Part shown: positions 121-12,455 of the stretch, one piece after another
Position numbering within the stretch: the first letter of the stretch is position 1
How the letters are laid out: every line of letters begins with the position of its first letter
Assembly (NCBI GenBank): GCA_023255735.1
Contig: JAGDVP010000007.1
Coordinates: 1-64,000, forward strand
Direction of reading: 5' to 3'
DNA from: Halothiobacillus sp.
GTDB lineage: Bacteria > Pseudomonadota > Gammaproteobacteria > Halothiobacillales > Halothiobacillaceae
Length of the DNA stretch: 64,000 bases
Notes under the pieces: model-generated
The model's input: the letters and a program-made list of their open reading frames with translations, nothing else
The model's database searches: none
What the model was told of the DNA's origin: nothing
Position numbers and translations under genes: made by a program

Positions 121-1098
121 TTAATCCAGCCGCGCCGCTATATCCGCCGCGCTTTCTCGGTAATAAATCATCAACATCTTAATGTCGCGGTGACCGCTAA
201 TGCGAGCCAGCGTCAACACATCCACTTTTTTGGATAGCCGCGTCAACGCCTCGGCGCGCATGTCATGAAAGGTTAGGCCAGTAATGTCGCATCGCAGCTT
301 GGCTTTACGGAACAGCGCATCGAGGGAAGCGCTGTCTACGGTGAACATTTCCGGCAAACGCTTGAGCAGTTCAATCGCTTTGCTCGATAACGCTACCCGG
401 CGAGATTCGCCGTTTTTGGTCATCGGCAATAACAACGTGCGTGATTCCCAATCAATTAGGTTGGGCTTAATTGAAAGCAATTCACCCGCGCGCATAGCGG
501 TTTCAATCGATAACAGCATGGCGAGCGCCACTTCTTGGCTCTTGGTTTTAATCTCGGTCTCATCGTCATAACCCAGCGCATCGCATAGCCGCTGAATCTC
601 ATCTTCAGTGGGGCGTCTATCCCGTGGCCTAGGGCTCGGTGGCCTGCGCACGTCATCCATTGGGTTAGCCGCAATCCAGCCCCAGTCCCGTCGCGCGCAT
701 TCAAACACAGAGCGCAGAATCGTCATCTCACGCAACACAGAACCCGGCGCCACTACGCCAAGGCGTAAATCACGCCATTCGGCAACCTCATGGCCATGGA
801 TGTGATCGAGCCGCCTGCCGCGCAAAGGATGCGCTTTAATCCATAAGTTAAGCGTGGTGGCTTCTCGCCGGTGACCTTTGTGCGTGGGTGACACTTCAAG
901 CAAATATCGCTCCAGCGCATCGCTAAGCGTTTTATCGCCGCGCGTCGCCCCGATACCTCGACCAGATAAAAGCTCCGCCTCAACCTCGGCCGCCCATTGC
1001 TGTGCTTGGCGCTTCGTGTCGAACGTTGCAGATCGCCGTACCCCAGCACGCGAAATCTCGACTCGCCACTTGTCGCCGCGTTTCCGATAAGTTGCCAT
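121..1098 (-). CDS. tyrosine recombinase / phage-type integrase
   Basis: A site-specific recombinase of 325 residues that would insert and excise a mobile element at the neighbouring tRNA gene. The N-terminal part (about 1-60) looks like an arm-binding domain (MATYRKRGDKW). A SAM-like core-binding domain spans about 60-150, followed by the catalytic domain. The active-site set is complete: R203 (in AMRAGELL), K228, H278 and R281 (FHDMR), H303 (SGHRD) and Y312 as likely nucleophile. It is full length with no frameshift, so it is probably active. It lies just downstream of tRNA-Leu in the same orientation, the usual arrangement for an element inserted at a tRNA 3' end. The rest of the element would lie left of the window. 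Element type (prophage or island) cannot be told from here. Confidence 0.93.
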   Translation of the reverse strand: MATYRKRGDKWRVEISRAGVRRSATFDTKRQAQQWAAEVEAELLSGRGIGATRGDKTLSDALERYLLEVSPTHKGHRREATTLNLWIKAHPLRGRRLDHIHGHEVAEWRDLRLGVVAPGSVLREMTILRSVFECARRDWGWIAANPMDDVRRPPSPRPRDRRPTEDEIQRLCDALGYDDETEIKTKSQEVALAMLLSIETAMRAGELLSIKPNLIDWESRTLLLPMTKNGESRRVALSSKAIELLKRLPEMFTVDSASLDALFRKAKLRCDITGLTFHDMRAEALTRLSKKVDVLTLARISGHRDIKMLMIYYRESAADIAARLD

Positions 1099-3218: not shown

Positions 3219-4091
3219 TTAAAGGTTATTAAGTCGCCGCAGCACGGTAATCACGGCAGAGGAATCTTGCTCGCCAAGGCCCGCGCCCACCAGTGCATTC
3301 ATCCATTGTGCAGCCAAGCGGGCGCCGGGTAGGGCTAAACCCAATTCTTCGGCGGTTTGCCGCACTATGCTTAAATCTTTCTGATGCAGCTTGGCTTTAA
3401 AGCCGGGGATGAAATCACCCGATAACATGCGTGCCCCGTGAATCTCTAGCATGCGCGAGTGAGCCGAGCCACCCAGCAAGGCTTCGCGCACGCGGGCGGG
3501 ATCAACCCCCGCGCCTTCGGCAAGCAGGAGCGCTTCGGCAATGGCGGCGAGTGTGCCGCTCACCACAATTTGATTGCAGGCTTTGGTGATTTGCCCCGCG
3601 CCCACATCGCCCACATGGGTGAGGGTTTTGCCCACGTGCGCGAGCAAGGGTCGAACGCGTTCGAACAGGGCGGGCGCGGCGCCCACCATGATGGTCAGGC
3701 TGGCGGTTTGCGCGCCTTTTTGCCCGCCAGAAACCGGCGCATCGACCCAATGGGCGGCCTTGGTGGCGAGTTGTTCGGCCATGCGGCGGGTGGTGCTGGC
3801 GCTAATGGTGCTGAAATCGATCACGATTAAATCCGGCTTTGCGCCGGCCAGAATGCCGTTTTCGCCCTGCACTAAGCTTTCGACATCGCGGCTGTCACCG
3901 ACATTGAGGCACAAGACATCAACGTGGAATGCCAAATCGGCGGGGCTGGATGCGAAATTTGCTCCTTGAGTGAGCAGAAAGTCGGCTTGTTGCGGTTGGC
4001 GTGCCCACACGTAGAGCGCATGCCCTGCGTGCAATAGATGCTCGGCCATGGGCGCGCCCATGATGCCTAGACCAATAAAACCGATTTTCAT
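3219..4091 (-). CDS. 2-hydroxy-3-oxopropionate (tartronate semialdehyde) reductase-like beta-hydroxyacid dehydrogenase
   Basis: An NAD(P)-dependent dehydrogenase of the 3-hydroxyisobutyrate/GarR/GlxR/LtnD family, 290 residues. The N-terminal Rossmann motif is GFIGLGIMGAPMA, the substrate loop is DAPVSGGQKGA, and the catalytic lysine is K170 in GAGQITKACNQ. The C-terminal region has GFKAKLHQKDL, very like tartronate semialdehyde reductases. It is translationally coupled to glcF by an ATGA overlap, so it should act on the product of glycolate oxidation. GarR/GlxR reduces tartronate semialdehyde to glycerate, while the related LtnD oxidises L-threonate. Because no glyoxylate carboligase is nearby, the true substrate is open. 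Confidence 0.85.
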   Translation of the reverse strand: MKIGFIGLGIMGAPMAEHLLHAGHALYVWARQPQQADFLLTQGANFASSPADLAFHVDVLCLNVGDSRDVESLVQGENGILAGAKPDLIVIDFSTISASTTRRMAEQLATKAAHWVDAPVSGGQKGAQTASLTIMVGAAPALFERVRPLLAHVGKTLTHVGDVGAGQITKACNQIVVSGTLAAIAEALLLAEGAGVDPARVREALLGGSAHSRMLEIHGARMLSGDFIPGFKAKLHQKDLSIVRQTAEELGLALPGARLAAQWMNALVGAGLGEQDSSAVITVLRRLNNL

Positions 4092-5341
4092 GGGGTGGAT
4101 CCGTGCGTGGCTGCCAGTGGGGCGGCGGGGTCGAGCAGGGTAAGCCAGTGCACGACGCGGCGCGTGCTGCCGCTTTCAAGATGAGTTTGGCAACCGATGT
4201 TCGCGGTGGCAATTAATTCAGGTTCGCCGGATTCCAGCGCGGTGACTTTTTGGGTTTTGAGTTGAGCGGCCAGTTGGGGTTGCAAAATCGAATAGGTACC
4301 GGCTGAACCGCAGCACAGGTGTGCATTAGGCACGGGGGTGAGCTCAAAGCCGAGCGTTTTAAGCAAACGTTCGGTTTTGCCTTTGAGCTTTTGGCCGTGT
4401 TGCAGGGTGCAGGGCGGATGAAACGCGATGCGCCGGGCATGGCGGGGTTTGAGTTCGGCAAGCTGCGGGTTATCGGCCTCAGCGATCAGCACTTCGATGG
4501 GGTCGCGGGTGAGGGCCGATATTTTGGCCGCTTTGCTGGCATAGCGGGGATCGTGTTCGAGCAGATGACCGTAGTCTTTAACTTGTAGCCCGCAGCCGCT
4601 GGCGGTAATCACAATGGCTTCGGCACCGGCTTCAACGAGCGGCCACCACGCATCAATAGTGCGGCGGATGGTATTGTGGGCGGCCTCTTGTGCGTTTAAA
4701 TGCTGTTCAATGGCGCCACAGCAACCCACGCTGGGTGCGGAAATTAAGCTTATCCCCAGCGCGTCGAATACCCGCCGGGCGGCGGCGTTAATATCGGGGG
4801 AGAGGCTAGGTTGCACGCAGCCTTCCAGCACGATCATTTTGCGGGCGTGATTGGGCGCGGGGGTTTTGCCTTTGGGGCGCGGGCTGGGGATGGTTTTTTG
4901 CCAGGCGGCGGGCAATAGCGGGCGAAATACGCGCGCGGTGGCCAAAGCCAAACCAAACAAGCGGGGCGAGAGCAAGCCGTGTCGCAATACGGCGCGATGC
5001 AGCCGCTCACCCAAGGCGCGCGGGGCGCGGGTTTCCACTTCTTTGCGGCCAATATCGACCAATTTGCCGTATTCGACCCCTGAGGGGCAGGTGGTTTCGC
5101 AGTTAAGGCAGGTTAAGCAACGGTCGAGATGATTGCGGGTGGTGGCGGTAACGGGCGCGCCTTCTAGCATTTGCTTCATGAGATAAATGCGCCCGCGCGG
5201 GCCATCATCTTCATTGCCGGTGAGCTGGTAGGTTGGGCAGGTGGCGTTGCAAAACCCGCAGTGCACACAGGCGCGCAAAATGCGTTCAGCCTCAAGGCCG
5301 TGTGGGGTGTTTTGCAGTTCAGCAATTAGGTTGGTTTGCAT
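4088..5341 (-). CDS. glcF: glycolate oxidase iron-sulfur subunit GlcF
   Basis: Electron-transfer subunit of the membrane-associated glycolate oxidase GlcDEF, which oxidises glycolate to glyoxylate. It has 417 residues, near the E. coli length of about 407. Two 4Fe-4S motifs lie near the N-terminus (CVHCGFCNATCP and CLTCLNCETTCP). Two CCG domains follow (SVGCCGAIEQ and LCCGSAGTYS), as in GlcF and heterodisulfide-reductase-type subunits. It starts 19 nt after glcE ends and overlaps the reductase gene downstream by four bases. Confidence 0.95.
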   Translation of the reverse strand: MQTNLIAELQNTPHGLEAERILRACVHCGFCNATCPTYQLTGNEDDGPRGRIYLMKQMLEGAPVTATTRNHLDRCLTCLNCETTCPSGVEYGKLVDIGRKEVETRAPRALGERLHRAVLRHGLLSPRLFGLALATARVFRPLLPAAWQKTIPSPRPKGKTPAPNHARKMIVLEGCVQPSLSPDINAAARRVFDALGISLISAPSVGCCGAIEQHLNAQEAAHNTIRRTIDAWWPLVEAGAEAIVITASGCGLQVKDYGHLLEHDPRYASKAAKISALTRDPIEVLIAEADNPQLAELKPRHARRIAFHPPCTLQHGQKLKGKTERLLKTLGFELTPVPNAHLCCGSAGTYSILQPQLAAQLKTQKVTALESGEPELIATANIGCQTHLESGSTRRVVHWLTLLDPAAPLAATHGSTP

Positions 5342-5360
5342 GAGTTATTGTCCGAAAGAC

Positions 5361-6464
5361 TTAAAGTTCGGGATACAAGCGGCCGCGATTGAATAGCCCC
5401 TTGGGATCAAGCGAGGCTTTAACGCGTTGCTGGAGGGCGAGCAGGGGCGCGGGCAGCGGGCTGAACGGTGCCATGCTGTTGCCGGTCGCTGCGCAAAATA
5501 GCGTGGCGTGGCCACCAGCGGCTTGCGCTTGCGGGCGGATTTTTGCGGCATCGCTTAAGTTATCTAACCATAGCCAGCGCTGTTGCCCACCCCAGTCGAT
5601 GAGCTGCCGGGCAAGGGGCAGCGCGGCAATCGGCGCGGTCAGCGGCAGGGCAACACGCCACAAATTCCCCGTTTTGGCCTGAAAAAAAGGCAGGTGATGA
5701 TCGCGCAGCGCCTGCCAATAGTGTGTGGCGGCGGTTGGCTCTTGCGTATCGCCACCGATGCGCAGCGCGGCTTTGTGCACGGCACTATGTGCGCCGGCGA
5801 GCCTTATGTGTAGCGCGTCGTCATGAAAACTTGCGCCATTAATGGGCAACGGGCTGCGGTTCCACTCGGCTAAATGCGCCAAGGCTTGCGACGCGCTCAT
5901 GGGGATGATTTGTGTTTGTTGCACACGCGCGATCGGCAGCACGCGAATCGAGACTTCGAGCAATACGCCGAGCGTGCCCAGCGCGCCTACCATGAGGCGG
6001 GAGACATCATAACCGGCGACATTTTTCATGACTTTGCCGCCAAAGTGCAGCACTTTGCCTTCGCCACTCAGCACGGTGACGCCGAGCACCGCATCGCGCA
6101 CGGCACCTTGCCAAGGGCGCGCCGGCCCAGATAAACCGGCGGCTACCGCGCCACCCAGTGTGCCGCCGGTGCTTTGGGGATCGCCAAAATGCGGCGGTTC
6201 AAACGGGAGCATTTGCCCCGCTTGCGCCAAGATGTGCTCAATGTGTTTGAGCGGCGTGCCTGCTCGGGCGGTGAGGACGAGCTCGGCCGGTTCGTATTCT
6301 AAAATGCCGCTGTGACCGGCCAAATCGAGCGGTTGGCCGTGGGTGGCGCGGCCATAAAATGCTTTACTGCCACTGCCCTGAATCATTAAGGGGGTGGCGT
6401 TGGCGAAGGCTTCAACTACGGTGGCGGTTAAAGCGGGGGTGAGGTCTTGTTCGAGTGAAGTCAT
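5361..6464 (-). CDS. glcE: glycolate oxidase FAD-binding subunit GlcE
   Basis: Second flavin subunit of glycolate oxidase, 367 residues from ATG at 6464 (MTSLEQDL). The frame is open further upstream into glcD, but this start gives a 7-nt gap after the glcD stop and a length near the E. coli protein (350). It has an FAD-binding PCMH-type domain with GSGSKAFYG and DPQSTGGTLGGAVAAG, and ends PKGLFNRGRL, the usual C-terminal signature of this oxidase family. GlcE is related to the N-terminal half of GlcD and both are needed for activity in E. coli. Confidence 0.93.
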   Translation of the reverse strand: MTSLEQDLTPALTATVVEAFANATPLMIQGSGSKAFYGRATHGQPLDLAGHSGILEYEPAELVLTARAGTPLKHIEHILAQAGQMLPFEPPHFGDPQSTGGTLGGAVAAGLSGPARPWQGAVRDAVLGVTVLSGEGKVLHFGGKVMKNVAGYDVSRLMVGALGTLGVLLEVSIRVLPIARVQQTQIIPMSASQALAHLAEWNRSPLPINGASFHDDALHIRLAGAHSAVHKAALRIGGDTQEPTAATHYWQALRDHHLPFFQAKTGNLWRVALPLTAPIAALPLARQLIDWGGQQRWLWLDNLSDAAKIRPQAQAAGGHATLFCAATGNSMAPFSPLPAPLLALQQRVKASLDPKGLFNRGRLYPEL

Positions 6465-6471
6465 GCCTAGC

Positions 6472-7974
6472 TCAAAAACGCGGTAAATCGGGATGGGGCA
6501 GGTGATTGTGGTGCACGTGCATCGCGCCAAATTCAGCGCAGCGTTGCAAGGTGGGCACCGCTTTGCCGGGGTTGAGTAAGCCTGCGGGGTCGAATGCGGC
6601 TTTCAGCGCGAAAAAATGCTCAAGTTCATCGGCCGCAAATTGCGCGCACATAGGCTTAAGCTTTTCAACCCCAATGCCGTGCTCGCCTGTGACGCTGCCG
6701 CCCACTGCGACGCAGAGTGTTAAAATGCTCATCCCAAATTCTTCGGCGCGGTCGAGTTCACCGGGTTTGTTTGCATCAAACAAAATCAGCGGATGCAAGT
6801 TGCCATCGCCTGCGTGGAACACATTGGCCACTTCGAGTTGGTATTTTTTGCTCATCGCATCAATTTGCTGCAATACCGAGGCGAGTTGCCTTCGCGGAAT
6901 GGTGCCATCCATGCAGTAATAATCGGGCGATAAGCGCCCCACGGCGGGGAATGCCGCCTTGCGTCCCGCCCAAAAACGAATCCGTTCTTCATCGTTTTTA
7001 GCAATCCACAAACCGGTCGCGCCAGAGCGTTGCAGCACGGCTTCCACCTCGCCCAGTAACTCGGTTACTTCTTCAGCGGTGCCATCAAGCTCGCACAACA
7101 AAATGGCGGTGGCATCAACGGGGTACCCCGCATGTACGAAGGCTTCGGCCGCGCGAATGGCGTTGTTGTCCATCATCTCAAGCCCGGCGGGGATAATGCC
7201 CGCCGCAATGATATTAGCGACCGCTTGGCCCGCATTTTCGAGCGAATCGAATGCGGCCATCACCACTTTGGCGGTTTCCGGTACGGGCAACAAGCGCACC
7301 AAAATTTCCACCATGATGCCGAGCATGCCCTCTGAACCGCTCATCACCGCTAATAGATCAAACCCTGCGCTATCGAGTGCTGCGCCGCCGATGGTGATGA
7401 TTTCGCCTTCGATGGTGATGAAGGTCACTTCCAGCACGTTATGCACGGTTAAGCCGTATTTAAGGCAATGCACGCCACCTGAGTTTTCCGCGACATTGCC
7501 GCCGATGGTGCAGGCAATTTGCGAAGAAGGATCGGGCGCGTAATACAAGCCATAGGGCGCCGCCGCCTCAGATATGGCGAGGTTGCGCACGCCGGGTTGC
7601 ACGCGCGCGGTGCGATTGGTTGCGTCAATGTGCAGAATGCTTTTGAATTTGGCGAGGCTCAATAACACGCCATCGATACTCGGCAATGCGCCGCCGGATA
7701 AGCCCGTGCCTGCGCCGCGCGCCACAACCGGGATGGCCAGGCGGTGGCATAATTTGAGCACCGCTTGCACCTGTTCGATGGTTTCGGGCAGCACCACGAC
7801 CGCCGGCATGCGTTTAATAGCCGATAGGCCATCGCATTCAAACGGTTTCATGGCCTCAGCGGTGGTGAGCAATGCCGCCGTGGACACAATGGCGCGCAAA
7901 CCTTCAATTAACGCGGCATATCGCTCGGCGGAGAGCGGGGGCGATTCGTGGGCAAGTTCAGCCGAAATACTCAT
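6472..7974 (-). CDS. glcD: glycolate oxidase catalytic FAD subunit GlcD
   Basis: Main flavoprotein of glycolate oxidase, 500 residues, matching the E. coli length of 499. The FAD-binding PCMH domain contains VARGAGTGLSGGALP and CTIGGNVAENSGG. The C-terminal FAD-oxidase domain carries HAGDGNLHP and TGEHGIGVEK and closes with NPGKAVP. In an autotroph this enzyme would process glycolate made from the 2-phosphoglycolate by-product of Rubisco. The start is 20 nt from the end of the kinase gene upstream and 7 nt separate it from glcE, so glcD-glcE-glcF-reductase is one transcription unit. Confidence 0.96.
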   Translation of the reverse strand: MSISAELAHESPPLSAERYAALIEGLRAIVSTAALLTTAEAMKPFECDGLSAIKRMPAVVVLPETIEQVQAVLKLCHRLAIPVVARGAGTGLSGGALPSIDGVLLSLAKFKSILHIDATNRTARVQPGVRNLAISEAAAPYGLYYAPDPSSQIACTIGGNVAENSGGVHCLKYGLTVHNVLEVTFITIEGEIITIGGAALDSAGFDLLAVMSGSEGMLGIMVEILVRLLPVPETAKVVMAAFDSLENAGQAVANIIAAGIIPAGLEMMDNNAIRAAEAFVHAGYPVDATAILLCELDGTAEEVTELLGEVEAVLQRSGATGLWIAKNDEERIRFWAGRKAAFPAVGRLSPDYYCMDGTIPRRQLASVLQQIDAMSKKYQLEVANVFHAGDGNLHPLILFDANKPGELDRAEEFGMSILTLCVAVGGSVTGEHGIGVEKLKPMCAQFAADELEHFFALKAAFDPAGLLNPGKAVPTLQRCAEFGAMHVHHNHLPHPDLPRF

Positions 7975-7994
7975 GTCACCACCTTAAATTTGGG

Positions 7995-9311
7995 TTAACC
8001 CCGCAAGCGGCGCACCACATCGCGCACCGCAAATTGATCGCCCACATTGCCCGGGAAAATCACCACGGGTAGCTGTGGGAAGCGCGGGTGATCGGCCGGA
8101 CAGCGCACGACCGAGCAGCCGGTGAGAATTTGCCCCAATACCCGCGCCGCTTTTAAGTTTAGACCGGTCGAGAGCACATCGTTGGAGGTAATGCCGCCTT
8201 TGCTCACAAGCCAGCCTAGGTCTTTGGGTAAGCCCGCGACGATCGCCATCAAGGTAGCCGATACGCGCTCGCCGAAGGCTAACCGCGTGGCTTGATCGGC
8301 AAAGGTTTTTTCCAAGCGACTGGTGAAAATCACGCTGGTTAAACCGGCATCAAACGCCGTTTGCGCACGGGTTAAAACCTCGCTGACCAGCGCGGCGTTA
8401 TCGCTGTCGATGCGTTCAATATCGACTTCAATGGCCGCCAGATTCGGCTCTTTTAACAGCTCGGCCAATTGCTCGCTGGTTTTTTTGACGTGTGAGCCGA
8501 CAATCAGCGCACCGGGCTTGCCATTGCGCACAAAATGCCGCATGTCGCTGGCGGCAATCGGTTGCGGGGGCAGGGCGGCGAGTGCGGTGAGTAGGCTCGC
8601 GGCGCTGCGAAATAAAAACCGCTTGCCCCTCGCCGCCACCGCCATCACCGCCTGGGCGAAGCGGTTTAAGTCATCTTGGGTGAGCGCATCCACCACACCG
8701 CAGGCATTGTGCGAGAGTACGGCGATTTTCGCTTCAAGCGTGCTGCCGCGAATGTCCTCCAGCACAAAGCGCTGCACGGCATCGGCGGGAATACGCCCAG
8801 CGGTTTTTTCAGCGACATAATCGGGCAGGTAGCTTGTTTGATAGCCGAACACGGAATCGCGGGCGAATTCGGTTTCGTGCGTGGGCACTCTTTTGCCATC
8901 GATGAGCAAATAATGCTGGCTGTGCTCGGTGATGCGACCGGCCTCGATAAAAGCCGGCACCAAAAAGTGCGCGTCGAATGGTCCGAGTTCCTCGGCAATG
9001 ACATCGGTTTCCACCGGATAATGCCCGCGCAAGGTGGAGTCGGAACGGCTAACCAAAATCGGGTTGATCGGGTTGCCCGCTGCCGCCTCAGCCGTCAAAG
9101 CGGCAGAGAGGTTCTGGCAAACTTCACGGGTGATGTGGGCGGCGCTCAGCGCATCCATGCCGCGCGTGTTGGTGAGCACGAAAAACAAAGGCGATGCATC
9201 GGTTAACGCGGCGCGCAGGGTGGCTGTATCCCAGCGCGTGAGTAATAAGCAGCCGTGCACGGTTTGCGAGCCGGTGGGGTCGTCATCCAAGGCAATAATT
9301 TTGGTTTGCAT
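7995..9311 (-). CDS. four-carbon acid sugar kinase family protein (DUF1537, OtnK/DtnK-like)
   Basis: An ATP-dependent kinase of the DUF1537 family, whose known members phosphorylate 3-oxo-tetronate, D-threonate or D-erythronate. It has 438 residues from ATG at 9311. That start is preferred over the ATG two codons upstream because GGAG lies 6 nt before it. The N-terminal substrate domain starts with ALDDDPTGSQTVHG and has SRSDSTLRGHYP. The C-terminal nucleotide domain has SKGGITSNDVLS. The usual partners of tetronate kinases (OtnC aldolase, OtnI isomerase or PdxA2) are absent. It sits between a ThDP enzyme and glcD, where a glycerate kinase would be expected. Confidence 0.85.
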   Translation of the reverse strand: MQTKIIALDDDPTGSQTVHGCLLLTRWDTATLRAALTDASPLFFVLTNTRGMDALSAAHITREVCQNLSAALTAEAAAGNPINPILVSRSDSTLRGHYPVETDVIAEELGPFDAHFLVPAFIEAGRITEHSQHYLLIDGKRVPTHETEFARDSVFGYQTSYLPDYVAEKTAGRIPADAVQRFVLEDIRGSTLEAKIAVLSHNACGVVDALTQDDLNRFAQAVMAVAARGKRFLFRSAASLLTALAALPPQPIAASDMRHFVRNGKPGALIVGSHVKKTSEQLAELLKEPNLAAIEVDIERIDSDNAALVSEVLTRAQTAFDAGLTSVIFTSRLEKTFADQATRLAFGERVSATLMAIVAGLPKDLGWLVSKGGITSNDVLSTGLNLKAARVLGQILTGCSVVRCPADHPRFPQLPVVIFPGNVGDQFAVRDVVRRLRG

Positions 9312-9323
9312 GAGCATCTCCGC

Positions 9324-9359
9324 AAAAAACCCGCGCGCTCAATGATTGAGGTGCGCGCG
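9324..9359 (-). terminator. terminator or attenuator hairpin between the ThDP-enzyme gene and the kinase gene
   Basis: On the minus strand CGCGCG (9359-9354), CTCAAT (9350-9345), a one-base loop, ATTGAG and CGCGCG form a long stem with a 3-nt bulge at 9353-9351. TTTTTT (9329-9324) follows. It lies 11 nt past the stop codon of the ThDP-enzyme gene and just before the kinase start. It would reduce or end read-through into the kinase-glcDEF genes. Confidence 0.65.
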
Positions 9360-9370
9360 TTTACGTTCAA

Positions 9371-11557
9371 TTAGAATGCGGCTTTAACGCGTTTGGCGAT
9401 GTCGCCACCGGTCATGCCATTGAGCTCAAACAGCTCTTGCGGGCTGGCGGTGGTCTCCCCGCGTTTCCACGAGAACACCTCCCGGCGGGTGGCACGGCTG
9501 CGAATCAGCATCGGCTCAAGCGGCGCCGATGAGCCACCACTAACCGCGACCAGCATGTCGCCATCAAACAACGCATTAAAATCGGCATCGCTCATAAAGC
9601 CGTTGTCGGACTCGGGCACCGAATCCCAAGCGACATCGCTGGGGCGATAGAGCTGGCGTGGGTTGGCCGCCGCTACGATGCGCACTTTAAAGCCCGCCGC
9701 TTCCAACTCATCTTTGGCTGCAAAAATGGGCAAAAACACCATATCGCCCGTGGCGGCCAGCACGACGGTTTTATCGCCACCTGTGCTTTCATACAGCGTA
9801 GCGGCGCCTTGCAGGATGGCAGCTTTGGCCTGCGCTGGCGTGGTGTATACCGGCAGTGGCGTTTTCGAGGCGATAATCGTGATGCACTTGTTAAAGCTGT
9901 TAAGCGACCAAGCGTAGGCCGCTTGAATCATGTTCGCATCCGCCGGATACAGCAAAAAGCTGTTGCCATTTTTCATCATGGCGGCGAAATGGCCTTCAAT
10001 TTCGGGGCGCTGATGCGTCCAGCCGTTGCGACCTTGCTCCAGCGCGCCGGCGGTGAACATGCTGACCATCGACGGGGTTTTACGGCGCAGTTCAGCCATG
10101 GCCTGCGCCACGGTTTGCACAATGGGCCAGCCGTTAATCGCAAAGCTTTCATACGACAACCACACCGAACGTCCGCCGAACAGGGCAATCCCTGCGGCTA
10201 AACCCGCGCAGGCATCTTCATTCAAAGGCTCGTATACGCGGCCGCTCGGCACTTGGTTGTAGAGCGGGTCAGTGGTGGGGTGGCGAATTTTGAGCGCATC
10301 ATTGATGTTTTTCATCGCCGAGGCTTCGTTACCATCGGCATTGGTGACAATGAATTGGGTATCTTTTTGACCAACATAAGCGACCAGCGCGCCGAAGGCC
10401 GTGGCCGGCACCTGCGATTCGCCCACGGCAAAATTTTGCAGCGGCAAGCCGCTAATATCCGCCAAGGGGCGCTCGTGCTCGGTGACCGCCGTGTTAACGG
10501 CTGAACCACCCCCAGCGCGGATGAGGTTATCGCGCACCAGTGCCCAAGCCTCAGGGGCGAGCGCGCGGGTTTGCAAGGCTTCGATCATGTGGGGTTTATC
10601 CAGTGTATCGCCGGCATATAAATTGTGCGATTTGGCGCCATGAACATGCACGCCCGCACCTTTAATTTGCTTGATAATCAAGGCGGTGAACGTGCCATTC
10701 AATGCCAGTTGTGCCGCTTTGTGCGTGGCTTGCAACACGGCTTTACCAAACGCCCTGCGCGCCGCAGGTGAGAAGCGGGTCGAATCGACATACTCGCCCT
10801 CTTGATCCATATCATCATAATCTTTGGCATTGATGAGAATCACTTCTTTAAAGCCGTGGCCGTACCAGTACGCCTTCATGCGCTCATTCGTCCACAGTGA
10901 GCACATCGAGTGGTGCTCTTGGCTGTAGCCGTTCCAAATCAAAATAGGCAAAAAGTTTGTAATGTCGGGGAACGCGGTGTTGAAGTGCAACATGGAGTTC
11001 AAAATATACGGCTCACCCATGCCGCCATCGCCGATGGTGACGGGGAAGAGTTTATCGCGGTGCAAATACGCGCCCGCCATCGCAAAATGCTGGCCTTGCC
11101 CCAAGGGGCCAGCTGGCGCCAATAAGCCCGGAATGGCGCCGGATAAATGCCCGAGCAAACCATGCTTTTCACGGAAGCGCGCGCGCAGGTCATCTACCGT
11201 GTGGATGCCCATTTTTTCAAGCGACCGATCTAAAAACATCGCACTGTAAAAGCCGGGCGCGTGATGCCCTACTTCAGTCACCATGTTTTTATGACCCAGC
11301 AGCATCAAGGCGGCATGAACATCTGCCGATGAGGCATAACCACCGGGGTGACCGGAGGCTTTCGCGCCGGTGATTTGCAGCGTTAAATACCGCAGCGCAT
11401 CGGCAGTGAGCAGGGTTTGAAAAGCTGCCGCATCGCTATTGACATCCGCAATGGCGGTGGCGCCTTCAGGCACAGCGGGGTGCTTGCCCAAGGTATCGAA
11501 ATCAGGCCAGGCGGGATTGAAGTATTGAATGCCTTGGGTGAAGCTTGGGTTACTCAT
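9371..11557 (-). CDS. thiamine-diphosphate enzyme related to phosphoketolase and transketolase
   Basis: A ThDP-dependent ketol-transferring enzyme of 728 residues, shorter than classical Xfp phosphoketolases (about 790-825). The N-terminal part has transketolase-like signatures: ASGHPGG near residue 67, GPLGQG near 150, and the ThDP motif from GDGGMGEP near 176 to N209. The middle and C-terminal parts are phosphoketolase-like (WLSYESFAINGWP, NGWTHQRPEIEGH, YPADANMIQAAY). Phosphoketolases split xylulose-5-P or fructose-6-P to acetyl-P, and transketolases move two-carbon units. The donor used here cannot be read from sequence. The start ATG has AGGAA 7 nt upstream. It is divergent from an IclR regulator and heads the glycolate cluster, though a hairpin follows it. 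Confidence 0.8.
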   Translation of the reverse strand: MSNPSFTQGIQYFNPAWPDFDTLGKHPAVPEGATAIADVNSDAAAFQTLLTADALRYLTLQITGAKASGHPGGYASSADVHAALMLLGHKNMVTEVGHHAPGFYSAMFLDRSLEKMGIHTVDDLRARFREKHGLLGHLSGAIPGLLAPAGPLGQGQHFAMAGAYLHRDKLFPVTIGDGGMGEPYILNSMLHFNTAFPDITNFLPILIWNGYSQEHHSMCSLWTNERMKAYWYGHGFKEVILINAKDYDDMDQEGEYVDSTRFSPAARRAFGKAVLQATHKAAQLALNGTFTALIIKQIKGAGVHVHGAKSHNLYAGDTLDKPHMIEALQTRALAPEAWALVRDNLIRAGGGSAVNTAVTEHERPLADISGLPLQNFAVGESQVPATAFGALVAYVGQKDTQFIVTNADGNEASAMKNINDALKIRHPTTDPLYNQVPSGRVYEPLNEDACAGLAAGIALFGGRSVWLSYESFAINGWPIVQTVAQAMAELRRKTPSMVSMFTAGALEQGRNGWTHQRPEIEGHFAAMMKNGNSFLLYPADANMIQAAYAWSLNSFNKCITIIASKTPLPVYTTPAQAKAAILQGAATLYESTGGDKTVVLAATGDMVFLPIFAAKDELEAAGFKVRIVAAANPRQLYRPSDVAWDSVPESDNGFMSDADFNALFDGDMLVAVSGGSSAPLEPMLIRSRATRREVFSWKRGETTASPQELFELNGMTGGDIAKRVKAAF

Positions 11558-11609
11558 GACAGGTTCCTATGCGTTGCTCATCGAAAAAGGGGAGAGGGCA
11601 AGATTTCTC

Positions 11610-11639
11610 TTGACGCTGACTTTAGCGAGCTTTCATAAT
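11610..11639 (+). promoter_or_regulatory. predicted promoter of the IclR regulator gene
   Basis: TTGACG (11610-11615) and CATAAT (11634-11639) are separated by 18 nt, a good sigma-70 match. They lie 66 nt before the regulator start, in the divergent gap with the ThDP-enzyme gene. The -10 element overlaps one arm of an inverted repeat, suggesting autoregulation. Confidence 0.5.
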
Positions 11640-11676
11640 TTCTCAATGCAAAATCGTTTTCACAATATGAAATTAT
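11635..11676. promoter_or_regulatory. candidate IclR-type operator (inverted repeat)
   Basis: ATAATTTC (11635-11642) is repeated inverted as GAAATTAT (11669-11676), 34 bp centre to centre, in the divergent promoter region between the ThDP-enzyme gene and the regulator gene. The shared half-site reappears partly as TTGAAAT at 11680-11686. IclR-family proteins commonly bind paired AT-rich palindromes. The assignment rests on position and symmetry only. Confidence 0.4.
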
Positions 11677-11705
11677 CAATTGAAATAGCGCGAACAGGAA
11701 ATCCC

Positions 11706-12455
11706 ATGTCTGAACCCCAAGACCGCGCCAGCGGTATTCAAGTCATCGACCGCGCAGTGTGCCTAATGCAAGCCCTTGCACGCTATCCGCACCCGGTCAG
11801 CCTCAAAATTTTGGCGGCAGAGTGTGGCCTGCATGCCTCAACCGCGCACCGTATTCTGGCGACTTTGGCTTTGCATCATTGGGTCGATAAACCGAGCGAG
11901 GGCTATGCCTTGGGCAGCGCGTTGGTGCGCCTCGCGGCACGCGCGCGCCCCGCCCCGCGCTGGCGAGAAATCGCCTTGCCCATTTTGGCTGAGTTGTGTG
12001 AGGCGCTTGGCGAAAGTGTGAATTTAACCGTGCGCGAAGGCGATGAGGTGGTGTATGTCGAACGCTCGGTGCCGAACCGCATGATGCGGGTCGAGCAAGT
12101 CATTGGTACGCGGGCGCCGCTGCATGTGACCTCGGTGGGTAAAATTTTGCTGGGCGCGGAAGGTGCCACCGCCATCAGCCGTTATGCCGAGCGCACCGGT
12201 TTGTTGCCGCTCACCAAAAACACGATTCGCCAAACCGAGGCGCTTATTGATGCCTGCCTCACCGCTGCCCACACGGGCTTTGCCTTTGATAACGAAGAGG
12301 CGGAAATCGGCGTGGGCTGCATTGGCGTTTTGGTGCGCGATGCCGATGGTGTGCCGGTGGCGGGCTTATCCATCTCCAGCCCCATCGAGCGCCGGCAAGA
12401 TCACTGGGTTACGCATTTGCAAGCGGCGGCAAAAAAAATCGAAGCGCGGTTGTAG
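11706..12455 (+). CDS. IclR-family transcriptional regulator
   Basis: A regulator of 249 residues from ATG 11706, which has AGGAA 5 nt upstream. The frame is open farther upstream to 11529, but that stretch overlaps the start of the divergent ThDP-enzyme gene and is not IclR-like. The N-terminal winged helix-turn-helix includes SLKILAAECGLHASTAHRIL (about residues 35-55). The effector-binding domain has TSVGKILLG and the acid-sensing region EEAEIGVGCIGVLV. E. coli relatives AllR and IclR sense glyoxylate and related acids. The divergent position makes it the likely regulator of the glycolate cluster, with a small organic acid as probable ligand. Confidence 0.9.
   Translation: MSEPQDRASGIQVIDRAVCLMQALARYPHPVSLKILAAECGLHASTAHRILATLALHHWVDKPSEGYALGSALVRLAARARPAPRWREIALPILAELCEALGESVNLTVREGDEVVYVERSVPNRMMRVEQVIGTRAPLHVTSVGKILLGAEGATAISRYAERTGLLPLTKNTIRQTEALIDACLTAAHTGFAFDNEEAEIGVGCIGVLVRDADGVPVAGLSISSPIERRQDHWVTHLQAAAKKIEARL

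Follow-up and report, generated by a model that had tools for sequence, protein, structure and literature searches.

Contig JAGDVP010000007.1 of a Halothiobacillus species (assembly GCA_023255735.1) carries, at positions 3219-12455 of the 64,000-nucleotide stretch analyzed here (the window), a cluster of seven genes in which glycolate oxidase genes (glcDEF) stand beside the genes for a thiamine diphosphate (ThDP) enzyme, a DUF1537 kinase and a divergently encoded IclR-family regulator. The cluster is likely a glycolate/glyoxylate assimilation module of RuBisCO-containing autotrophs, with phosphoglycolate salvage as its most likely function. Its core, the ThDP gene with the kinase gene behind it, is a real and widespread module linked to RuBisCO, and a role of this pair in glyoxylate metabolism is probable. 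A preliminary description of the window was right to single out this cluster, and the positions and families that it gave for all seven genes (garR-like, glcF, glcE, glcD, DUF1537, ThDP and iclR) were confirmed with an open reading frame (ORF) list and with Pfam and NCBIfam searches. The features are:

3219-4091, minus strand: GarR-like beta-hydroxyacid dehydrogenase resembling tartronate semialdehyde reductase (TSR), an optional member of the module (NAD_binding_2/11; TIGR01505, 292 bits)
4088-5341, minus strand: glcF, glycolate oxidase iron-sulfur subunit (NF008434, 636 bits, cut-off 333)
5361 to about 6461, minus strand: glcE, glycolate oxidase subunit (NF008439, 489 bits, cut-off 284)
6472-7974, minus strand: glcD, glycolate oxidase FAD subunit (NF008408, 825 bits; TIGR00387, 546 bits)
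7995-9317, minus strand: DUF1537 kinase with SBD_N and NBD_C domains, invariably paired with the ThDP gene
9371-11557, minus strand: ThDP enzyme, transketolase/phosphoketolase-like, 728 residues, core of the module (XFP and Transket_pyr matches)
11658-11672, no strand assigned: palindrome TTTCATATTGTGAAA, inferred IclR-family operator (pattern TTTC-N7-GAAA)
11706-12455, plus strand: iclR-family regulator, divergent, start re-placed (best NCBIfam match BhcR)

A contig scan with the ThDP protein confirmed 116 loci, of which 80, with identities of 65-96%, were kept. Their record titles name Halothiobacillus (89-96% identity, the nearest among named records), Gallionella, Sideroxydans, Sulfuriferula, Acidithiobacillus and Mariprofundus, as well as Nitrosospira, Nitrotoga, Thiogranum, Sedimenticola and many gammaproteobacterial metagenome-assembled genomes (MAGs). 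Downstream sequence of 600 bases or more is available in 99 in-family loci, and in all of them the kinase gene comes after the ThDP gene, on the same strand and no more than 1 kb away. The iclR gene is divergent and close to the ThDP gene in 96 of the 101 in-family loci with room for it, the exceptions being L055, where it lies 4.6 kb away, and L080, L081, L116 and L117, where no match was found. These counts leave out three phosphoketolase plasmid controls, L097-L099 (with them, 99/102 and 96/104), and the loci are partly redundant, some genomes being present two or three times. The ThDP-kinase arrangement is far beyond chance. One ThDP-kinase locus, L072, lies at 65% identity on a MAG contig labeled Campylobacterota in its record.

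The distribution of the module was sampled in one fixed set, 274 genomes from the class, and 21 of them had a ThDP profile match at 1e-100. Full-length matches all exceeded 1300 bits, and nothing weaker appeared at this threshold except two contig-split pieces of one gene. All 21 also had a match to the kinase profile, on the strand of the ThDP gene and at most 0.9 kb from it, including G128, where an 850-base gap leaves room for another short gene, and G036, where it is the C-terminal piece of the ThDP gene that precedes the kinase. Outside these genomes the kinase profile matched four times, at full length in G233, at half score in G111 and G228, and as a fragment in G170; G233, where the kinase starts at contig base 160, is the only one of the 274 genomes to have, without a ThDP gene, a full-length kinase that scores similarly. 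The RuBisCO large subunit was found in 20 of the 21 ThDP genomes vs. 133 of the 274 overall (Fisher p 2.9e-6, uncorrected for kinship; five of the 133 matches do not reach 1e-100 and are possibly RuBisCO-like proteins), and is present in the source genome (2.06 Mb in 29 contigs, 93.5% complete). Two RuBisCO-positive genomes of the same family as the source, G158 and G269, had neither the ThDP gene nor gcl nor malate synthase among their matches.

In the window, GlcDEF was called from GlcE and GlcF, both above curated cut-offs, and the adjoining GlcD-family gene, whose product is 4-8% below its own cut-offs (897 bits for NF008408 and 568 for TIGR00387). The garR and glcF genes share a 4-base overlap. 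The GarR protein is under the TSR cut-off (340.75 bits for TIGR01505) and scores 172 bits as L-threonate dehydrogenase, vs. 292 as TSR; it is 55% identical to the TSR of a relative's locus, L106, and 30% identical to E. coli YgbJ. In a related Halothiobacillus locus (L002) garR was not found, and purT comes after glcF there. Gene placements in relatives rest on tblastn, and LutABC, GlcG, serine-glyoxylate aminotransferase and the TRAP transporter subunits Q and M were named by eye. In 20 stretches fetched around ThDP genes, several of which end early at contig ends, glcD lies downstream on the same strand nine times and a lutABC-like run once. Two gene runs link the core to glyoxylate enzymes: in L106 the order is ThDP gene, kinase, malate synthase A (819 bits, cut-off 595), lutABC-like genes, TRAP genes and TSR, while in L107 it is ThDP gene, kinase, TRAP genes, glcDEF, garR, an MmsA-like dehydrogenase gene and malate synthase G, all in a same-strand run (malate synthase G 1229 bits, cut-off 565). 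The TRAP binding protein of L106 matches the structures 2zzv (3e-121) and 7e9y, named lactate-binding TTHA0766 (2e-111), and transporter genes occur near several cores. A GlcG-like protein reached 120 bits (cut-off 246). Over the whole sample, malate synthase is present in 93 of 274 genomes and in four of the 21 with the ThDP gene, and was not found in the source genome at 1e-30.

Among known regulators, BhcR, IclR and AllR respond to glyoxylate. Of the curated models, the window protein scores best against BhcR (NF045644, 151 bits, cut-off 350), followed by PcaR/PcaU, IclR, KdgR and AllR, all under cut-off. In the interval 11529-11706 (plus strand), the first ATG of the iclR ORF falls within the ThDP gene, so that automatic annotation could mis-start iclR; we place the start near 11706 because homologs in relatives are about 240-255 residues long, vs. 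308 for the ORF as listed, and because of the position of the palindrome. The latter sits between iclR and the ThDP gene, with a weaker tandem copy (two mismatches) at 11639-11653. The exact pattern TTTC-N7-GAAA is present in 61 of 85 distinct iclR-ThDP intergenic stretches, vs. a mean of 0.3 and a maximum of 2 in mononucleotide-shuffled ones, a contrast somewhat flattered because the motif was discovered in the same stretches in which it was then counted. Of 105 occurrences of a stricter form, counted on one strand over 1.6 Mb of redundant loci, 104 lie upstream of a ThDP gene. With two mismatches allowed, the window has three matches vs. a shuffled mean of 1.3, not clearly rarer than chance, and none of 95 intergenic stretches contains the classical IclR box GGAA-N5-7-TTCC. 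The palindrome is a putative IclR-family operator.

Gene content, the pairing of ThDP gene and kinase, the palindrome and the distribution are visible in the sequences; from them we infer the reactions of the ThDP enzyme and the kinase, the decarboxylation and the ligand of the regulator as follows. GlcDEF would oxidize glycolate to glyoxylate. The ThDP enzyme would then transfer a C2 (glycolaldehyde) unit from a ketose phosphate, for instance xylulose 5-phosphate or fructose 6-phosphate, onto glyoxylate, giving 3-oxotetronate and a shortened aldose phosphate, and the DUF1537 kinase would phosphorylate the oxotetronate at C4. Decarboxylation to dihydroxyacetone phosphate (DHAP) and CO2 could be carried out by an adjacent F_bP-type aldolase, as encoded in some relatives, by a housekeeping aldolase, or could be spontaneous, the substrate being a beta-keto acid. 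In sum, glyoxylate, a pentose phosphate and ATP would yield two triose phosphates, CO2 and ADP, under the control of the local IclR-type regulator, probably sensing glyoxylate. Formation of 3-oxotetronate by glycolaldehyde transfer would tie the genes together; tetronate kinases phosphorylate compounds of this kind. We hold this exact chemistry, from C2 transfer to DHAP, tentatively, at somewhat less than an even chance.

By its sequence the ThDP protein is a discrete and so far unnamed transketolase/phosphoketolase-like family. It matches Pfam XFP (50 bits) and XFP_N (30), which pass, and more weakly XFP_C (19.6), which fails; Transket_pyr also matches weakly. No NCBIfam model comes near its cut-off (at best 94 bits vs. 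777 for the phosphoketolase models, and 42.5 vs. 682 for transketolase TIGR00232). Phosphoketolases are its nearest solved relatives. A plasmid search for relatives returned ten records at 22-30% identity, five annotated as phosphoketolase and five without annotation under the match, and three of these plasmid proteins served as outgroups. Of the 13 phosphoketolase pocket residues given in a passage of PMC10547157, transferred by our own numbering count over alignments, ten are the same here and do not vary across 30 sequences of the ThDP family (H70, H98, H137, G153, H311, E447, Y469, Q508, N511 and H515), the partner of phosphoketolase His97 being H98 by HMMER and H89 by MAFFT. Phosphoketolase His548 is replaced by an invariant arginine, R510, and Gln321 by N312, Ser440 could not be placed, and the motif GELG reads GPLG. 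The family keeps the catalytic histidines and glutamate of the superfamily. The enzyme thus appears competent for catalysis, its pocket has gained a positive charge, and R510 is possibly a carboxylate site.

The kinase falls far under both curated tetronate kinase models, at 35 bits for OtnK (NF043035, cut-off 350) and 74 for the D-threonate kinase DtnK (NF047819, cut-off 450), and no BLAST match at 1e-3 links it with E. coli YgbK, annotated as 3-oxo-tetronate kinase, or with the PdxA-linked kinase of L092. It is 39 and 37% identical to DUF1537 kinases encoded directly before a class II F_bP aldolase in Deinococcus and Rhodococcus, respectively, and 34% identical to a kinase encoded near LtnD-like and F_bP-type genes on an Arthrobacter plasmid. 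It appears nearer to these F_bP-aldolase-linked kinases than to OtnK; its likeness to 2-OtnK was gauged through this gene pairing, which is that of the published 2-OtnK/2-OtnC route. Other related kinases, without an F_bP-type aldolase, adjoin garR and a gluconate symporter gene, the garR-kinase pairs of Ligilactobacillus and Priestia being on plasmids. Within the ThDP family itself, a full-length F_bP-type aldolase gene directly follows the kinase in L018, L027, L032, L045 and L103. Where they were compared, these kinase-linked aldolases share 58-74% identity, and the two that were scanned scored 197 and 210 bits against the general ketose-bisphosphate aldolase model (cut-off 216) and 204 and 227 bits against the best-scoring model (cut-off 396). 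At L101:9662-9922 there is a 98-residue F_bP-type aldolase match between the kinase and TRAP genes, which could be the remnant of a lost gene. The GarR tree was weakly supported and was not used.

The preliminary description had taken the missing OtnC, OtnI and PdxA2 as an argument against tetronate chemistry. The absence stands for OtnC, no Aldolase_II match (the OtnC family) being found in the source genome at 1e-5; the argument is weakened, because a route described in a passage of PMC12540250 (citing Guo 2024) uses an F_bP-type aldolase and does without OtnI, and because the closest outside kinase adjoins such an aldolase. In that three-step route, 2-OtnK and the F_bP-type 2-OtnC convert 2-oxothreonate to DHAP. 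Among the 21 ThDP genomes, Aldolase_II matches are lacking in the source genome and G207 and present in the other 19, which says little because the family is generic.

Several findings weigh against the proposed route. The ThDP pocket carries the phosphoketolase-type residues Q508, N511 and Y469, so it is not certain that the enzyme passes a C2 unit to an aldehyde, and we know of no activity for this ThDP family. The best curated match of the kinase, however weak, is D-threonate kinase. Kinases paired with garR and without an F_bP-type aldolase (Ligilactobacillus, Priestia and Niallia) are nearly as similar, at 33-35% identity, and the kinase tree leaves undecided whether the F_bP-linked or the garR-linked group is nearest. 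An adjacent F_bP-type aldolase is recorded in only 7 of 108 in-family loci (one a duplicate and one the short match), was not found next to the kinase in the window, and no OtnC-family aldolase was found in the source genome. For 2-OtnK the reported substrate is 2-oxotetronate and not 3-oxotetronate. As to context, a GlcD-family protein is present at 1e-60 in all 21 ThDP genomes, but only two exceed the GlcD cut-off, which makes this test generic since the family is broad. No RuBisCO was found in one ThDP genome (G033, 86% complete), and 113 of the 133 RuBisCO genomes are without the module. Nor are the ThDP gene and malate synthase complementary, since malate synthase is present in 4 of 20 RuBisCO genomes with the ThDP gene and in 24 of 113 without it. 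As 89 of the 133 RuBisCO genomes have neither the ThDP gene nor gcl nor malate synthase, the module can answer the salvage question for some autotrophs only.

The preliminary description had offered, as one of two readings, a replacement of the carboligase and glycerate kinase of the glycerate pathway, and part of it survives: there is a dedicated, autotroph-linked ThDP-kinase module, but it does not appear to be a substitute for Gcl plus glycerate kinase. In such a scheme the ThDP enzyme would act as a non-homologous carboligase making tartronate semialdehyde, GarR would reduce this to glycerate, and the DUF1537 kinase would replace glycerate kinase, neither Gcl nor a recognized glycerate kinase being encoded inside the cluster. 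The claimed absence of gcl holds for the genome as a whole, where the best TIGR01504 match (356 bits, cut-off 711) is the acetolactate synthase IlvB, because it adjoins IlvN and IlvC; above-cut-off Gcl was found in 4 of the 274 genomes and in none of the 21 with the ThDP gene. The TSR-like gene of the cluster and the above-cut-off TSR (366 bits) in the L106 run, where TSR and the ThDP module do occur together, also fit, as do two ThDP genomes (G026 and G245) with neither a TIGR00045 nor a MOFRL glycerate kinase match. The claim that the kinase fills the place of a missing glycerate kinase was wrong. A GarK-type glycerate kinase is encoded in the source genome (C13:125529-126650; TIGR00045, 356 bits, cut-off 168), and 19 of the 21 ThDP genomes have a conventional glycerate kinase, five of the TIGR00045 type and 14 others of the MOFRL type (one a 74-residue fragment); a role of the DUF1537 kinase as sole glycerate kinase was therefore rejected. 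A TSR homolog was undetected at 1e-20 in four of the 21 (G081, G206, G239 and G240, each 99% complete), and the TSR cut-off was passed in three. A route through tartronate semialdehyde and the TSR family therefore cannot be general, and together the glycerate kinases and the TSR gaps (the TSR family alone was searched) argue against a family-wide route ending in a DUF1537 glycerate kinase. Moreover, we know of no transketolase-type enzyme that forms a formyl anion, as Gcl does from glyoxylate. We regard this scheme as quite unlikely. Glycerate may nonetheless be a common metabolite in autotrophs with the ThDP module; the TIGR00045 and MOFRL types, which are unrelated, never overlap among the 21 genomes.

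Three other readings were weighed against C2 transfer from a ketose phosphate to glyoxylate. The enzyme could supply acetyl phosphate from sugar phosphates in the manner of a phosphoketolase, and hence acetyl-CoA for malate synthase, with the kinase in a side role; the nearest solved relatives, the conserved Gln, Asn and Tyr and the malate synthase genes of the L106 and L107 runs all fit. This is unlikely in view of the scarcity of malate synthase among ThDP genomes and its absence from the source genome search, the change of His548 to Arg and of GELG to GPLG, and the constant kinase, which it leaves unexplained. Catabolism of external tetronates, with GarR as a tetronate dehydrogenase, the kinase as a 2-OtnK-like enzyme and the ThDP enzyme in a later or parallel step, would suit the kinship with F_bP-aldolase-linked kinases, the plasmid-borne garR-kinase pairs and the transporters near several cores. 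It gives no reason for the links to RuBisCO, GlcDEF and malate synthase, the window GarR scores higher as TSR than as L-threonate dehydrogenase, and garR is present in only 12 of 80 loci (one partial) and two of the 20 fetched stretches (many of which end early), which makes this reading distinctly improbable. Transketolases accept hydroxypyruvate as a donor, and in a variant of our scheme the C2 unit would come from hydroxypyruvate, the product of serine-glyoxylate aminotransferase, with loss of CO2, and be joined to glyoxylate before the kinase step. An aminotransferase cluster given that label by eye is present in four loci; such genes are rare near the module, and we consider the variant very unlikely.

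Several known systems come closest to the module. In Cupriavidus necator, as described in a passage of PMC7486775, phosphoglycolate salvage uses the glycerate pathway (Gcl-Hyi-TSR-GlxK) and a malate cycle; the likeness is the start from glycolate to glyoxylate in autotrophs, while genomes with the module are without Gcl (in the 21 sampled), seldom have malate synthase, and encode instead a transketolase/XFP-like ThDP enzyme with a DUF1537 kinase. With the LtnD-2-OtnK-2-OtnC route (in the passage of PMC12540250) it would have in common a kinase akin to F_bP-paired kinases and the proposed end, from oxotetronate to DHAP, and would differ in that the oxotetronate comes from ThDP carboligation, not from a dehydrogenase, and in that the aldolase gene is non-adjacent in most loci. 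Phosphoketolase (XFP) and transketolase belong to the same superfamily as the ThDP enzyme and have the same catalytic His/Glu set, with the Gln/Asn/Tyr of the phosphoketolase type; the module enzyme differs from them in its scores far below the NCBIfam cut-offs, its transketolase-like GPLGQG and its invariant Arg. The glc operon of E. coli has the order glcDEFGBA, and is matched by L107 in having glycolate oxidase and malate synthase G genes in a single run; some loci also contain a gene that by eye looks DUF336/GlcG-like. To our knowledge, the ThDP-kinase pair and the IclR regulator are not part of it.

According to a passage of PMC7486775, phosphoglycolate salvage in chemolithoautotrophs other than C. 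necator has so far received scarce attention, and the frequency of malate synthase is 0% among the Acidithiobacillales (9 genomes), Halothiobacillales (6) and Nitrosococcales (14). The module in records of Acidithiobacillus, Gallionella, Mariprofundus, Nitrotoga, Sulfuriferula and Halothiobacillus would be a direct candidate for their phosphoglycolate recycling. No earlier description of the gene set was found in a literature search that covered titles and abstract openings, with most subscription journals outside its scope. That the module, drawing its C2 unit from a Calvin-cycle sugar phosphate, is a natural, undescribed salvage route of sulfur-, iron- and nitrogen-oxidizing autotrophs, replacing the carboligase, C2 or malate cycles, is possible, and we put it more cautiously still than the chemistry itself. 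If true, an unnamed ThDP family would acquire a function, and synthetic photorespiration bypasses could draw on a ready-made pathway from glyoxylate to triose phosphate.

Some loci have other genes after the kinase. In Gallionella-like loci (L006, L008, L022 and similar ones) these encode a Liv-type ABC transporter, a CoA-acylating MmsA, a GarR/MmsB-like protein and a 2-hydroxyacid dehydrogenase, perhaps a side module for hydroxyacids or 3-hydroxypropionate. At L116:6413-7852, in a stretch without an iclR match, a malic-enzyme-like gene comes after the kinase (537 bits, cut-off 1178). Near the left end of the window, a 325-residue ORF (121-1098, minus strand), judged by eye only, is tyrosine integrase-like.

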